Of a stretch of 64,000 bases of DNA, positions 55,165-60,092 are shown piece after piece. The stretch covers positions 248,001-312,000 of the forward strand of contig BAOK01000001.1 in the NCBI GenBank assembly GCA_000509225.1, in the 5' to 3' direction. How positions within the stretch are numbered: the first letter of the stretch is position 1; each line of letters begins with the position of its first letter. This DNA comes from Parvibaculaceae bacterium Mf 1.05b.01. Its GTDB lineage: Bacteria > Pseudomonadota > Alphaproteobacteria > Parvibaculales > Parvibaculaceae. Below the pieces are notes generated by a model. That model did no database searches and was not told the origin of the DNA. It was given only the letters and a program-made list of their open reading frames with translations. The position numbers were made by a program, and so were the translations under genes.

Positions 55165-55524
55165 CTACCAGCTCACCGTGTAATTAGCGGTGAGGGCGAC
55201 GTCTTCCAGCTTGCCGGTCTGTTCGGCGCGGTCGGTAGAGAGGTCCAGATGCACGCGGACGCCCTTTTCGCGGATGGGTGCATATTTCTGCACCAGCGCG
55301 TCGCCGGCGGCCTCAATTTCCGCGTTGGTGGCGGTGGGAACCGGGGCTCTCAGACCTGCATCCGGCGCGAGAAACTGCGTGGCGGGCAGGCGGGGCTCAA
55401 TCCCGATCTGGGTCAGTTCGGAATCGGATCCGCGCAGCTCGACCTGCGGTAGGGCGTGACCTGTCCCGGTTAGGCACAGGGTGGCGGCAATCGGTGCCAA
55501 TATGGAACAGATGCGAGGGCTCAT
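55165..55524 (-). CDS. Secreted 119-residue protein A
   Basis: A small exported protein with a signal peptide cleaved near GHA-LP. The C-terminal pattern TDR-x4-G-K-L-x-D-V-x-L-T-A-N-Y-x-V-x-W is shared with the gene at 56465, which has the same length. It ends in an aromatic residue on an alternating strand, like outer-membrane or beta-rich proteins. Family unknown. Confidence 0.6.
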   Translation of the reverse strand: MSPRICSILAPIAATLCLTGTGHALPQVELRGSDSELTQIGIEPRLPATQFLAPDAGLRAPVPTATNAEIEAAGDALVQKYAPIREKGVRVHLDLSTDRAEQTGKLEDVALTANYTVSW

Positions 55525-55575
55525 AGTCTTACGAAGCAGGAGTTGTGCCTTTTTCGGGATCTTTCAAATAGAAGT

Positions 55576-55607
55576 GTCATGCCCGGATTTATTCCGGGCA
55601 TCCAGGG
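55576..55607 (+). repeat. REP-like palindrome, copy 1
   Basis: GTCAT-GCCCGGA-TTTAT-TCCGGGC-ATCCAGGG: a palindromic stem GCCCGGA/TCCGGGC with constant GTCA and CCAGG flanks. It belongs to the common alphaproteobacterial repeat family. Plus orientation, in the divergent spacer before the gene at 55770. Confidence 0.9.
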
Positions 55608-55636
55608 TTCCAAACGCAGGCTTCCATTCTGTCGCT

Positions 55637-55666
55637 CCTGGACCCCCGGAACAAGTCCGGGGGTGA
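55637..55666 (-). repeat. REP-like palindrome, copy 2
   Basis: Inverted relative to copy 1: CCTGG-ACCCCCGGA-ACAAG-TCCGGGGG-TGAC. The GGGGG stem variant. Faces copy 1 across 29 bp. Outside it, TTCCAAACG (55608-55616) and CGTTTGGAA (55667-55675) form a further inverted pair. Confidence 0.9.
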
Positions 55667-55769
55667 CGTTTGGAATGGGGATAGTGAGTGCTTTCATCTC
55701 TTCTCTTTCCGCGTCACACTGGCGCCCTGTTGGTAGCTTTTTTTGAGAGTTTTCTGGGAGTTGGTGGTC

Positions 55770-56441
55770 ATGGGGTGCGGTCGGTTTTTGAGTTTGGTGA
55801 GTGGGGCAGCTTTGCTCGTTGCAGGAACAACAGCGTCTCTTGCTGCCATTGACGGGATTGATCTCTCGCCGGACGTGGGCGGCTCCCCGGACATTGAAAA
55901 GGGCACGGCCCTGCCACCCCCGGCAGACCTTTTGACACCGGCGACACCGCGCCCGCGGGGCAGCCAGTTTGAGGCCGCGCCGATCCCCCCTGAAAAGCCC
56001 GTGCGACCGTTTACGGAAGTCGGCTATGGGCCCTATGTGATCGGCGAGGCGGTCGACCTCAGCGATCCGGAGATTGCCGCCTCTGGTCCCATCAATCCGG
56101 ACTGCCATTATGTGCGTTTCGATCATCCGGCGGGGCCTCTCTATCTCATGATTGTGCAGGGCGAGGCCGCGCGGATTGATGTGAGCAGCATGGGCCCGGA
56201 AGGGGTGACGACGGGGCCGTCGCTGCCGAATGGTGTGGGCCTTGGCAGCCCGGTTGGCGACATTGAGGTCACCTGGGGCGACCAGGTGGAGACCGAGCCC
56301 AACAAATATGGGGTGGGCACGGATTACATCGTGACGCTCACCGACACGCGCGGCATTGTCTTTGAAACGGATGAGGGCAAGGTCACGGCCTACCGTGTGG
56401 GCCGCCCGCCGGAAGTGCATTGGGTGGAAGGCTGTTCTTGA
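55770..56441 (+). CDS. Secreted protein of unknown function
   Basis: A 223-residue exported protein with a signal peptide cleaved near SLAA-ID. A Pro-rich segment (about residues 30-75) precedes a beta-rich core with PDCHYVRFDHPAGPLYLMIVQG (quoted by HYVRFDHPAG) and GVGTDYIVTLTDTRGIVFET; two cysteines. ATG 55770 with GGGAGTT upstream is preferred to a TTG start. Not recognised. Confidence 0.7.
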   Translation: MGCGRFLSLVSGAALLVAGTTASLAAIDGIDLSPDVGGSPDIEKGTALPPPADLLTPATPRPRGSQFEAAPIPPEKPVRPFTEVGYGPYVIGEAVDLSDPEIAASGPINPDCHYVRFDHPAGPLYLMIVQGEAARIDVSSMGPEGVTTGPSLPNGVGLGSPVGDIEVTWGDQVETEPNKYGVGTDYIVTLTDTRGIVFETDEGKVTAYRVGRPPEVHWVEGCS

Positions 56442-56464
56442 GCCTGCCTTCGCGCCACAGTCTG

Positions 56465-56824
56465 TCACCAGGGAATTTTGTAACGGGCTGACACTTTGAG
56501 ATCGGTCAGCCGCCCGTCGAGCTGGAGCCTGTCGGTCTCCATGCGCCAGCGCAGCCCACTTACTTTGACGCGTGCCGGGTCGCCGGTCAGTGGCATGGTG
56601 AGCGTGCTCCTGAAATAGCGCCGCTTCGGCGCCGGCGCCGGGGCCGCAAGATGCGGTCTGTTCCCGCGATGGACAATGTCTGAATGCGCGCGCGCGTTGA
56701 GCGGCGCAAAAGCCTCTGACAATTGCGTCGACATGGGGGTGTGCCAAGGCGCAAGCGTCTCTGCGCGGGCGGGGCCCCCGACAATCCACGGGAAGGTGCT
56801 GATCACGGCCAGCACCCGGACCAT
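56465..56824 (-). CDS. Secreted 119-residue protein B
   Basis: A small exported protein with a signal peptide ending near ARA-ET. It shares the C-terminal signature TDR-x4-G-R-L-x-D-L-x-V-S-A-R-Y-x-I-x-W with protein A at 55165 and has the same length, which suggests paralogy although the N-terminal halves differ. ATG 56824 has AAAAGGA upstream and is preferred to the ATG at 56851. Function unknown. Confidence 0.6.
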   Translation of the reverse strand: MVRVLAVISTFPWIVGGPARAETLAPWHTPMSTQLSEAFAPLNARAHSDIVHRGNRPHLAAPAPAPKRRYFRSTLTMPLTGDPARVKVSGLRWRMETDRLQLDGRLTDLKVSARYKIPW

Positions 56825-57044
56825 GCGGGTCCTTTTGTGCTCTGCAGCCATGTGGTAATTCTAGCATGGGGACGCCGTTCCCTTGTGTCCTAAGTTGGGA
56901 ATTTGCTGCCTAAGTTCTGCCTTTTTTCGGGGGGCTTAAGGTTACCATTTTGTGCACGACTTCATATTGTCAGTGTGCTGAGATTTATTCTCAGGCTCTC
57001 TTCACTCTCTGCTGTCACCCTCGGGCTTGACCCACCCCAAAGCC

Positions 57045-57075
57045 GTCATCCCGGGCTTGTTCCGGGGGTCCAGGG
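57045..57075 (+). repeat. REP-like palindrome, copy 3
   Basis: GTCAT-CCCGGGC-TTGT-TCCGGGGG-TCCAGG in plus orientation, ending 17 bp before the GIY-YIG ATG. It is translated in the open frame upstream of that ATG as a PGLVPGVQ-like peptide, typical of this repeat family. A damaged relative (CACCCTCGGGCTTGACCC) lies at 57016-57033. Confidence 0.9.
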
Positions 57076-57091
57076 GCGGCAAGCTTCTCCC

Positions 57092-57385
57092 ATGGAGAAA
57101 CGCTTCCACGTCTACCTCATGACCAACCGTCGCAATGGCACGCTCTATTGCGGCGTCACGAGTGATCTCGCTCGCCGAGCTTATGAACACAAGAGCGGCA
57201 CAGTTGAAGGGTTCACGTCCCGCTATGATTTGAAACACCTCGTCTGGTTTGAGGAGGCGGGCGATGCGCTTACTGCGATCCAGCGGGAGAAAACCATCAA
57301 GGCCTACCCACGGGCCTGGAAGATCAATTTGATTGAAGAGCGTAACCCGCAGTGGCGAGACCTTTACGACGACCTCATGAAGTAG
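57092..57385 (+). CDS. GIY-YIG nuclease-family protein
   Basis: A 97-residue single-domain GIY-YIG protein. The GIY strand is FHVYLMTN, the YIG strand TLYCGVTSDLARRAYEHKSG (Tyr19, Gly21, Arg28/29, His33), and the metal Glu probably Glu66 in IQREKTIK; it ends with NPQWRDLYDDL. This small family is found in many copies in Alphaproteobacteria. No good Shine-Dalgarno before the ATG. It lies between inverted repeats 3 and 4, so gene and repeats may form one unit. Confidence 0.85.
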   Translation: MEKRFHVYLMTNRRNGTLYCGVTSDLARRAYEHKSGTVEGFTSRYDLKHLVWFEEAGDALTAIQREKTIKAYPRAWKINLIEERNPQWRDLYDDLMK

Positions 57386-57405
57386 GGTGGCCCGCGTTCC
57401 CTTAC

Positions 57406-57436
57406 CCTGGACCCCCGGAACAAGTCCGGGGGTGAC
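57406..57436 (-). repeat. REP-like palindrome, copy 4
   Basis: Minus orientation: CCTGG-ACCCCCGGA-ACAAG-TCCGGGGG-TGAC, identical in its 30 bp core to copy 2. It begins 21 bp after the GIY-YIG stop and mirrors copy 3. Confidence 0.9.
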
Positions 57437-57480
57437 GGCTTCGATTTGTTGTTGCCGCAGCTGAACCCAAAAACACTCAC

Positions 57481-57511
57481 GTCATGCCCGGACTTGTTCC
57501 GGGCATCCAGG
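57481..57511 (+). repeat. REP-like palindrome, copy 5
   Basis: Plus orientation: GTCAT-GCCCGGA-CTTGT-TCCGGGC-ATCCAGG, the same stem variant as copy 1. It lies 44 bp beyond copy 4 and 26 bp before the stop of the next gene. Confidence 0.9.
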
Positions 57512-57851: not shown

Positions 57852-57960
57852 TGGTGCCTCTCTTGTCCGTTTGAAGGAGAGGCAATTCCGGTGCAAGCAG
57901 CCGGATGTTGAGAAACCCCCTCGAGACGAGGAGCACGATTACCTTTAGGCGTGAACCCTG

Positions 57961-58077
57961 GACATACGTAACCGTCACCCGGCCACGTATGTCTCGTTAG
58001 GTAAAACCTAACGGTGCGTAACCGTATGTCTCGATGGATAGGGGTTCTCACGCCCCACGGCGGGAATTTGCCCGCCG
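57961..58077. other. Non-coding element with nested inverted repeats
   Basis: Three stems in a row: GACATACGT (57961-57969) with ACGTATGTC (57985-57993); CGTTAGGT / ACCTAACG with a 3-nt loop (57995-58013); and CGGCGGG / CCCGCCG with a 6-nt loop (58058-58077). GTAACCGT occurs twice, and a third copy of the first arm, CGTATGTC, is at 58023-58030. No coding frame or T-tract. It could be a structured RNA, an operator cluster or a recombination site. Confidence 0.6.
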
Positions 58078-58129: not shown

Positions 58130-60010
58130 TTACGTTATTTTCTCAATGAGCAGCTCACACAGTTTGTGTACCTCAGAGTCGACAGTTTCAAAATCTGTCC
58201 AGCACCTAGTTAGCGTTGCTTCTAGTGCTATTGGGTTCTTTCGCAGTCTCTTCGAATCCCCGCCAAAATTATTCGCGGTTTTTGTTTGTTCATCTTCCCA
58301 ATTCGGTAGTTGGCTTTTAAGTATTTCAGTTAGCGATGTGGGCCAAACGACGGCATTGCTTAGCCACAAAGTGTTCTCAGGATTTAGGTCTTTGATGTCT
58401 TCATCTAGCAGGCTGAAAATGGTTGAATGTAACTGCGCGTTTTTTTTAGCCTCCTTCACTTTGTCGGTGTCCGCATCGAAGACAACGAAGTGCGGGATGT
58501 TGAACCCTTTTGCTATAGAAATTGCGTTGATCAAATTCTGCTTTCCATCAACGCGTACTATATGCGCGCCAGCTTGATCAAATTTCCGCTGCAAATTTTT
58601 GAGTTGTAGCATTGTCTTTAGCACTGCCTCGTCCTCAGGGCCTTCCACTAACACAATATGACGAGCGAAAAAGAGTTCGTTTACTACAGGTTGTAGATGC
58701 TGATGAAGAGCGGCTAGCGATGCATTTAGTCCAATGGGGTCTTCACCTTTCGCTGTTGAAATTCGATCCCTGTGGTCTTGCAGGGTCGAGCTATGAACCG
58801 CAGATCTCCCTTGCGCGTAATCTTTCTGAACGACCCGGATCGCATCCAGTTCTCTCGCGGTTATGAAAAGCGGGCTGTGGGTTGTCAAAATTACCTGATT
58901 GGTATCAGAAAGCTCTTTAAGTGAATTTGAAAGGAACCGAGCTTGCGGAGGGTGTTGGTAGAGCTCTGGTTCTTCGCAGGCTAGTAGAAGTGAAGTGTCG
59001 CCTTCGGTAGCGATCTTTGCGTTCACATTTAGAAGTGCGATTAAATAGTTGCGTTGGAGCCCGTGACCGAAGTGAGAGATATCTCCTTCGAAAGACTGAT
59101 CATCAATTGTAGCCAGAGCATTGGGGGCGGCGACGTTTACGGTTTCAGCGGCATCACTCCAGTTCAATTTGACCTGCGAAGGGGTCGAAGTGAGTAGCTG
59201 AAATTCTGTAGTTATCTGATCTTGTAGATCACTAAGTGGTTGACTGTTCTTCTCAGTGAGATCTGTGATTTCGAGATAGGTTGCGTTCTTAATTTCTTGG
59301 AGTTCGTTATCCCAATCTATCTTGCTTCTCACAGCTCGATTTATCAGTGTCTTGAATGCGGAGTTTTTTGCTTCGAAATTTTCTTCTGCGGCATCCTTGA
59401 CGGCTGGGATGTAAACCCATTGTAGATATTTGTTTAGAAGGTGGAGTGGTCCTGCCACACCATATGCTTGGACTGGGCTCTCAATTTCGACTGTTAGCTC
59501 CGGGTTGCCTGCCTCAAAATCATTGAGAGCCCTTTTGGCCGCAGGCGCGCTGGTGTAGTTGGGAAGATCGGTATAGGTCTCCTGAAGAGTTTTGTATATT
59601 TCCTTTTTCTCGGCTGCATTGCCCGCTTCAAAAAAGAGTCGGAAGTCATTTATTCCATTGCGCACACCGTGGAAGTGAGCTTTGACGTTTCCTTCGTCAT
59701 CGCTTTGGGCTTTGATCAAGAAGCAGATCTCTCCAGCGCGAAAATAGTCTTGGAAATCTTGCTGTGCATCCTCTGTCAGATCACCAAAAGTGACTTTTAT
59801 TCGGATCTCGTTTTCGGTCCCGTCGACTCTGAAATCATCTGGTTTTAGCAATGTGCTCTTTTGATTGGACCCAAAGAAGATGTCCAGCGCATGTAGGATG
59901 GTGGACTTACCCGAATTGTTTGATCCTAGGAGGGCATTGTATTTTTGAAAGTTAATCGTCTCGTGTTCAAAGCATCTGAAGTTGAAAAGCTCTAGAGATT
60001 TCAGTTGCAT
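58130..60010 (-). CDS. OLD-family ATPase with TOPRIM nuclease domain
   Basis: A 626-residue OLD-family protein. The ABC-type ATPase has Walker A GSNNSGKST (29-37), a signature motif GHGLQR (315-320), Walker B LLLACEEPE (340-348) and H-loop TTHSP (376-380). A C-terminal TOPRIM domain follows with VEGPEDEA (455-462) and DAD (512-514). OLD proteins are DNA nucleases, several of them anti-phage. No UvrD-like GajB helicase or reverse transcriptase is adjacent. Sampled GC is about 42-45%. ATG 60010 has GGAGAG upstream. Confidence 0.9.
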   Translation of the reverse strand: MQLKSLELFNFRCFEHETINFQKYNALLGSNNSGKSTILHALDIFFGSNQKSTLLKPDDFRVDGTENEIRIKVTFGDLTEDAQQDFQDYFRAGEICFLIKAQSDDEGNVKAHFHGVRNGINDFRLFFEAGNAAEKKEIYKTLQETYTDLPNYTSAPAAKRALNDFEAGNPELTVEIESPVQAYGVAGPLHLLNKYLQWVYIPAVKDAAEENFEAKNSAFKTLINRAVRSKIDWDNELQEIKNATYLEITDLTEKNSQPLSDLQDQITTEFQLLTSTPSQVKLNWSDAAETVNVAAPNALATIDDQSFEGDISHFGHGLQRNYLIALLNVNAKIATEGDTSLLLACEEPELYQHPPQARFLSNSLKELSDTNQVILTTHSPLFITARELDAIRVVQKDYAQGRSAVHSSTLQDHRDRISTAKGEDPIGLNASLAALHQHLQPVVNELFFARHIVLVEGPEDEAVLKTMLQLKNLQRKFDQAGAHIVRVDGKQNLINAISIAKGFNIPHFVVFDADTDKVKEAKKNAQLHSTIFSLLDEDIKDLNPENTLWLSNAVVWPTSLTEILKSQLPNWEDEQTKTANNFGGDSKRLRKNPIALEATLTRCWTDFETVDSEVHKLCELLIEKIT

Positions 60011-60092
60011 CTGTTTTCGCTCTCCAGACGTTTGTTGTCCTCTAGGGATCAAGTGCAGAATTGAGATACTGCGATGGGATGGGTTTGCATGT

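Follow-up and report, generated by a model that had tools for sequence, protein, structure and literature searches.

A GIY-YIG nuclease gene between inverted CGTC-tagged palindromes as a candidate REPtron-like mobile element

The stretch of DNA analysed here (the window) comprises 64 kb of the 3.82 Mb genome, in two contigs, of Parvibaculaceae bacterium Mf 1.05b.01 (contig BAOK01000001.1, positions 248,001 to 312,000) and harbours, at 57044–57437 on the plus strand, a short gene for a GIY-YIG nuclease enclosed by two inverted repetitive extragenic palindromes (REPs). We propose, at a probability of roughly two in three, that this unit is a minimal mobile element, in which the spacer between two inverted CGTC-tagged REPs holds the gene for a nuclease cognate to them. 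Judged from sequence comparison, the best reading is that of a REPtron-like element in which a GIY-YIG nuclease would replace the REP-associated tyrosine transposase (RAYT), and the recurrence of the same arrangement in other bacteria suggests that the gene moves with its repeats as one element. A preliminary description of the locus had put forward a candidate mobile unit of REP/RAYT-like layout, a proposal supported by the association counts and by the slot variants in relatives presented below.

The unit, its protein and its palindrome families

The unit opens with REP copy 3 (57044–57074, plus strand), a CGTC-tagged palindrome with a CCAG tail and its CGTC end pointing outward, continues with the gene for the 97-amino-acid GIY-YIG nuclease (57092–57385, plus strand) and closes with copy 4 (57407–57437, minus strand), which is inverted and likewise has its CGTC end outward. 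Reading the sequence reproduced the layout given in the preliminary description: 17 bp separate the end of copy 3 from the ATG at 57092, copy 4 has the opposite orientation and lies 21 bp past the stop, which ends at 57385, and copy 5 follows at 57480–57510 (plus strand), a place at which the same-genus genome G002 carries a gene-less dimer plus a further REP (G and L numbers denote genomes and loci of our collection). Copies 1 and 2 stand apart from the unit, 1.4 kb upstream of it, as an inverted pair without a gene (55575–55668), with CGTC ends outward and a 40-bp spacer; G002 has this dimer, and G001 lacks it at the syntenic position along with adjoining bases. The clustering of five copies, with none elsewhere in the window, also held: the core CCGGNNTTNTTCCGG, with at most one mismatch, occurs exactly five times in the 64 kb, always within 55583–57502, versus a mean of 0.47 and a maximum of 3 in 100 shuffles.

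The only Pfam match of the 97-amino-acid open reading frame (ORF) is PF01541 (GIY-YIG; E = 1e-12). The gene is strongly constrained, since comparison of the window gene between G000 and G002 gave a nonsynonymous divergence (dN) of 0.0088 and a synonymous divergence (dS) of 0.908, and in an alignment of 64 the residues Y8, R29, H33, E66 and N85 are invariant and Y19 is nearly so. NCBIfam returned no family for the protein at E 0.001, the named profile UPF0213 included; PADLOC returned none at 0.01 and the phage records no match at 1e-5, while sequence matches in the PDB were weak (1ywl, E = 0.022; 1zg2, E = 0.16). A REPtron with a RAYT was considered as a candidate and rejected, the gene being a member of PF01541 and the Y1 HUH transposase family PF01797 having 0 matches in the window's own genome in a search that was positive in 5 of 14 control genomes.

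Beyond the window the repeat is dispersed through the whole genome, often as inverted pairs. A longer repeat form was found at 33 places within 3 mismatches (reversed control, 0), with many plus/minus pairs about 61 bp apart whose TCCAG sides face inward, and a second pattern with a shorter stem at 17 places within 3 mismatches (control, 0). Two copies of the second pattern (1726795 and 1727260) flank a second GIY-YIG gene (C2:1726949–1727230) whose product is 49% identical to the window protein, and none lies beside the first gene; among the copies listed, the first-family copy nearest to the second gene is 3.3 kb away. The genome accordingly holds two REP families, each beside its own GIY-YIG gene. 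A third REP type in the same genome (CCTCGGG..CCCGAGG) forms dimers with spacers of 26–27 bp (L137 1132–1209, L139 833–910, L028 1569–1646 and L031 1574–1652); the two subfamily GIY-YIG genes of this genome carry other REP types, and in the same-genus G001 a GIY-YIG gene (L092) is flanked by the third type. The third-type REPs are perhaps orphan repeats whose nuclease was lost.

The window palindromes fit the CGTC REP superfamily published by Di Nocera, De Gregorio and Rocco in 2013 (PMC3733652). As described in the passages of that paper used here, the superfamily has in common with our repeats the unpaired CGTC or TGTC tag, the CCA tail, a predominance of head-to-head dimers with short spacers and an occurrence mainly in Alphaproteobacteria; the stem starts with AT in the superfamily and with AT or AC here. 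In our own material, 44 of 45 units and 102 of 104 dimers have C or T as the base before GTCA (only this base is informative for the tag, because our palindrome scanner demands GTCA), and head-to-head dimers predominate among the own-genome pairs and in the dimer list. The same passages (PMC3733652) report CGTC REPs from five phyla and from every order of Alphaproteobacteria, leave their mode of spread open, state that a dedicated transposase is lacking and that no link to transposase genes exists apart from a few fortuitous cases, and equate the Neisseria CGTC-1 repeats with dRS3. The term GIY-YIG has 0 occurrences in the paper.

Association and matching of nuclease gene and palindrome

For the association counts, genes were selected for their similarity to the window protein. 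Named genomes contributed 51 loci; a set of 98 related genomes, 47 of which gave matches at 108 places, contributed another 29; and the remainder came from 8 of the 34 plasmid records with a match and from 18 stretches containing additional paralogues. Removal of duplicates left 101 genes, 98 of them with full flanks, and 337 neighbouring ORFs from the same loci as these 98 served as controls. Genes and controls were scanned with the same widened version of the scanner, a narrower one having overlooked palindromes whose first base is unpaired or whose stem is short (the earlier count made with it also left out L003, a third weak GIY match); palindromes starting with GTCG or GTCC, seen by eye in L042, L061 and L161, count as misses.

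A CGTC palindrome was present within about 90 bp of 82 of the 98 genes versus 48 of the 337 control ORFs, palindromes stood on both sides in 62/98 versus 2/337, and outward copies on both sides in 45/98 versus 1/337 (Fisher p = 1.7e-32), where p values are a guide only, given that selection was by similarity and that the sampled genes are related to one another. UPF0213 and other small GIY-YIG proteins are alike in fold and size, yet among 30 such genes from the window's genome and its relatives (short genes from outside the subfamily, chosen by hand; the list contained some more that were not used) only 4 had any palindrome and none had one on both sides. The enrichment of repeats near the gene, on which the preliminary description had staked its proposal, was thus borne out relative to ordinary ORFs and to other GIY-YIG genes alike. 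On a plasmid of Planktothrix agardhii (L145), a GIY-YIG gene of the subfamily with GTCATTCTGAG repeats on either side lies between a gene annotated as the type IIL restriction enzyme MmeI and DISARM drmA.

Protein and palindrome also vary together. For the 84 genes with a palindrome, protein similarity and palindrome similarity correlated with a Mantel r of 0.48, a value reached by 0 of 2000 permutations (largest, 0.195), and for 38 pairs of paralogues within one genome r was 0.55; the matching therefore does not just reflect common descent of genomes. At the level of sequence, the comparison shows a specific and repeated association in which protein type is matched to palindrome type. Co-occurrence, measured per Mb as matches to a generic pattern in excess of those to its reversed control, points in the same direction: with one genome per family, the median excess was 17.7/Mb in 17 genomes with the gene versus 5.3 in 41 without (no gene match at 1e-10; p = 4.8e-6), and over all 98 genomes repeat excess and gene number had a rank correlation of 0.70. 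The window's own genome has 90 excess pattern matches.

Boundaries, variable slots and surroundings of the unit

The extent of the unit follows from its homology to units of three same-genus genomes (G004, G005 and G006; four loci), which is contiguous from 57039/57044 to 57429–57438; in G004 the left homology end is also a contig end, so that only its right end counts, and G006 additionally shares a neighbouring gene with the window unit. Among 73 gene pairs with at least 75% nucleotide identity, 48 were measurable. Both homology ends lay no more than 3 nt from the REP ends in 11 of these (9 without the G004 contig end) and within 10/13 nt in 23 (19 without it).

Individual slots differed in occupancy between relatives. 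At the window slot, G002 carries the gene (98% protein identity) and G001 a dimer lacking it; the dimer found there in G005 has a 110-bp spacer, part of which is masked as N, and in G006 the gene stands inverted next to the same neighbour. A slot downstream of a sulfatase-like gene is occupied by a unit in G005 and by dimers in G006 and G002, and no REP was present in the stretches from G000, G001 and G003, two weak scanner hits having been rejected by eye. For a third slot, in a genus of the window's family, 27 genomes were searched and sequence was taken from 12: a unit was found in G030 and G015, a deleted form in G034, dimers in G024, G026 and G023, a single palindrome of another type in G010, several REPs of mixed type in G035, an unrelated palindrome in G021, other DNA in G038 and no REP in G022 and G018. 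Two of the dimers bear traces of the gene, that of G002 (L187 330–504) retaining its leader, start codon and first codons, and that of G034 retaining leader, start codon and 3' end with the ORF gone. What these comparisons show, as far as aligned sequence can, is that homology ends at the YGTC ends in many pairs, that slots are variable and that two dimers contain remnants of a gene unit. Next to a GIY-YIG unit of G002 (L135 3169–3420), the REPs are repeated about every 136 bp; the window shows no such local amplification.

A more distant case is provided by Azospirillum lipoferum 4B, where a GIY-YIG gene with a dimer on each side is located between sufB and sufC. Because Azospirillum relatives have short sufB–sufC gaps (A. 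ramasamyi, A. oryzae, sp. B510, A. thermophilum and one A. brasilense record), gain in A. lipoferum is the simplest reading, and by parsimony we infer an insertion between the two genes; A. ramasamyi is 96.5% identical over the 69% matched. Shinella sp. PSBB067 has a REP-gene-REP arrangement of its own in the sufB–sufC gap.

Flush direct repeats at the ends of 45 units numbered 2 at 2 bp (2.1 in shuffles) and 0 at 3 bp (0.7), and at the ends of 104 dimers 5 at 2 bp (2.1) and 1 at 3 bp (2.0); one base further out, 2-bp repeats numbered 6 (3.0) at units and 5 (7.0) at dimers. Two of the four 2-bp comparisons are therefore about twofold over shuffles. Complementary outer flanks of 3 bp exceeded shuffles, with 11 versus 2.0 at the units and 9 versus 3.8 at the dimers. 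Beyond the CGTC ends, at about 2–18 bp, G is scarce and A and C are abundant, most markedly at 7–12 bp, where G makes up 8% versus 33% at 37–60 bp (90 unit and 193 dimer flanks); this stretch may reflect a preference for certain targets, or may belong to the element itself without having been recognised as such. Short dimers show a fixed polarity, and toward the inside their ends resemble those of gene units: in 19 short dimers, a 5'-like inner end went with a GTCAC arm 10 to 1 and a 3'-like one with a GTCAT arm 12 to 0, the end types having been defined after inspection of the dimers and 15 of the 38 ends being of neither type.

Several features surround the repeat cluster in the window. An OLD-like AAA ATPase gene with a TOPRIM domain (PF13175, PF20469) lies beside it at 58130–60052; its best PADLOC match is Old (2.1e-52), making it a possible defence gene. 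At 57955–58040, short repeats in both inverted and direct orientation cluster around ACATACGTAACCG and CGTATGTCTCG; they do not seem to be related to the REPs. The small ORFs 55165–55524 and 56465–56851 encode proteins with ends that look alike by eye, and for the stretch of the latter ORF the syntenic regions of G001 and G002 contain nothing that matches at the nucleotide level.

Weighing the readings

A number of observations weigh against a mobile unit of the proposed kind. The sampled genes are related and their counts not independent; 16 of the 98 have no palindrome inside about 90 bp (among them six Pseudomonas genes, five of which have an outward copy 121–123 bp upstream), and 17 of the 62 both-sided genes are not outward on both. 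Homology continues more than 25 nt beyond a REP in 10 of the 48 measurable pairs, and in another 15 the ends neither fall within the loose limit nor run on. Ten of the 41 genomes without a gene match exceed 10 excess repeats per Mb, G070 has the gene and fewer than 5, and in the window's own family the median excess is 18.6 in ten genomes without a match versus 28.9 in 30 with one. The A. lipoferum gene is placed between two dimers, not inside one. In six gene units the arm rule of the short dimers was followed partially (5' arm GTCAC in 3/6, 3' arm GTCAT in 5/6), and it is reversed in the window's own unit, one REP of which (copy 3) has an imperfect stem. Of the empty sites in relatives that the preliminary description had named as a check, occupied, gene-less and REP-free slots were found, none of them precise to the base. 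A further check it had named, target-site duplication, gave a negative result: direct repeats of at least 3 bp at the ends of the 45 units and 104 dimers did not rise above shuffles, so that the hallmark of a classical insertion sequence is missing here. The latter result fits a single-strand or repair-driven route better than a DDE transposase.

Two known systems invite comparison. REPtrons (GTAG REPs plus a RAYT), as presented in the passages of PMC3733652 used here, likewise consist of a small nuclease gene flanked by REPs, with gene-less REP pairs elsewhere and a repeat type matched to the nuclease; they differ in having an HUH tyrosine nuclease and a GTAG tag, where the window unit has the GIY-YIG fold and a CGTC tag. 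In the window's genome, too, the REPs flanking the nuclease gene also occur dispersed.

The second system is suggested by a homologue in Neisseria gonorrhoeae that is identical to the window protein at 47 of 90 positions (52%; E = 7e-36) and stands among many ATTCCCGCG..GCGGGAAT / ATTCCCGC..GCGGGAAT repeats. We take this homologue to be Ssn, a site-specific single-strand nuclease acting on the repeat NTS; on that assumption, homology to the Neisseria protein would place the window protein in the Ssn family. This family, reportedly described in 2025, is said to comprise small site-specific single-strand GIY-YIG nucleases with dispersed cognate repeats that act on transformation. The combination of a small GIY-YIG protein with dispersed cognate repeats recurs in the window unit, whereas we read the latter as a probable mobile inverted-dimer element.

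In the mechanism we envisage, the nuclease would recognise its own REP hairpin and tag, probably in single-stranded form as reported for Ssn, and cut near the tag; the unit, or a gene-less version of it, would then be re-joined elsewhere, the freed end being re-inserted by host repair or annealing. Recognition and cutting are proposed because of the protein-palindrome matching and the biochemistry reported for Ssn, and re-joining because of the comparative record; that the enzyme drives the movement is something we infer. Gene-less REP dimers would be non-autonomous relatives of the unit, as miniature inverted-repeat transposable elements are of an insertion sequence.

The alternative that survives best, although we regard it as unlikely, is that of an Ssn-like guardian, in which the nuclease would cut REPs in incoming or exposed single-stranded DNA and tune transformation or repair without mobilising anything, the REPs adjoining the gene as co-inherited target of the enzyme and spreading by other means. 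The gonococcal homologue among its many repeats speaks for it, with a reported role in transformation, and protein-palindrome matching fits it equally; it leaves unexplained why homology ends at REP ends, why dimers contain gene remnants and why the suf operon has the gene in some genomes and lacks it in others. Homing has slimmer prospects still: the nuclease would cut gene-less dimers and repair would copy the gene unit in, with the REPs serving as homology and the palindromes themselves not jumping. GIY-YIG enzymes are an established class of homing nucleases, and the same slot can be gene-less or gene-bearing in relatives. In the units, however, REPs remain beside the gene, so that the site would lack protection; REP-free slots are found alongside occupied ones, and the homology offered by a REP amounts to just about 30 bp. 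That a RAYT or some other transposase acting in trans moved the REPs, with the GIY-YIG gene as passenger, we consider very improbable despite the REPtron layout, given the lack of PF01797 in the window's own genome (the only genome searched besides the controls) in the face of its 90 excess pattern matches, the lack of target-site duplication, and the scarcity of transposase genes beside CGTC repeats, a few fortuitous cases apart, in the passages of PMC3733652 used here. Chance or crowding, by which REPs would collect in any intergenic gap, for instance around small horizontally acquired genes, can point to the 48 of 337 ordinary ORFs with a REP nearby and becomes negligible in view of the both-outward counts (45/98 versus 1/337, Fisher p = 1.7e-32) and of 0/30 other small GIY-YIG genes with palindromes on both sides.

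Returning to the mobile unit, a wider reading can be ventured, to which we give slightly less than even odds. Across bacterial phyla, GIY-YIG nucleases of this subfamily could be the missing dedicated mobilisers of the CGTC REP superfamily. Transposition would then proceed without a transposase, and the smallest autonomous unit of the system would be a gene for a hairpin-specific nuclease plus two palindromes, with the common gene-less dimers as decay products and the G-poor stretch outside the CGTC ends as the mark of a preferred target or cutting site.

Among the matches listed, our literature search found none linking GIY-YIG genes with REPs, most subscription papers and all preprints being outside its scope, and a search with the repeat strings gave no bacterial-repeat paper by title and abstract. 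Within the literature covered, the unit, its remnants and the link to CGTC REPs may be new; cleavage of repeats of this kind by this class of enzyme may have been published already. If our reading is true, a second, unrelated enzyme class would be doing what RAYTs are thought to do. Assigning each palindrome family its own GIY-YIG nuclease makes the spread of CGTC REPs testable with one small enzyme and one oligonucleotide.
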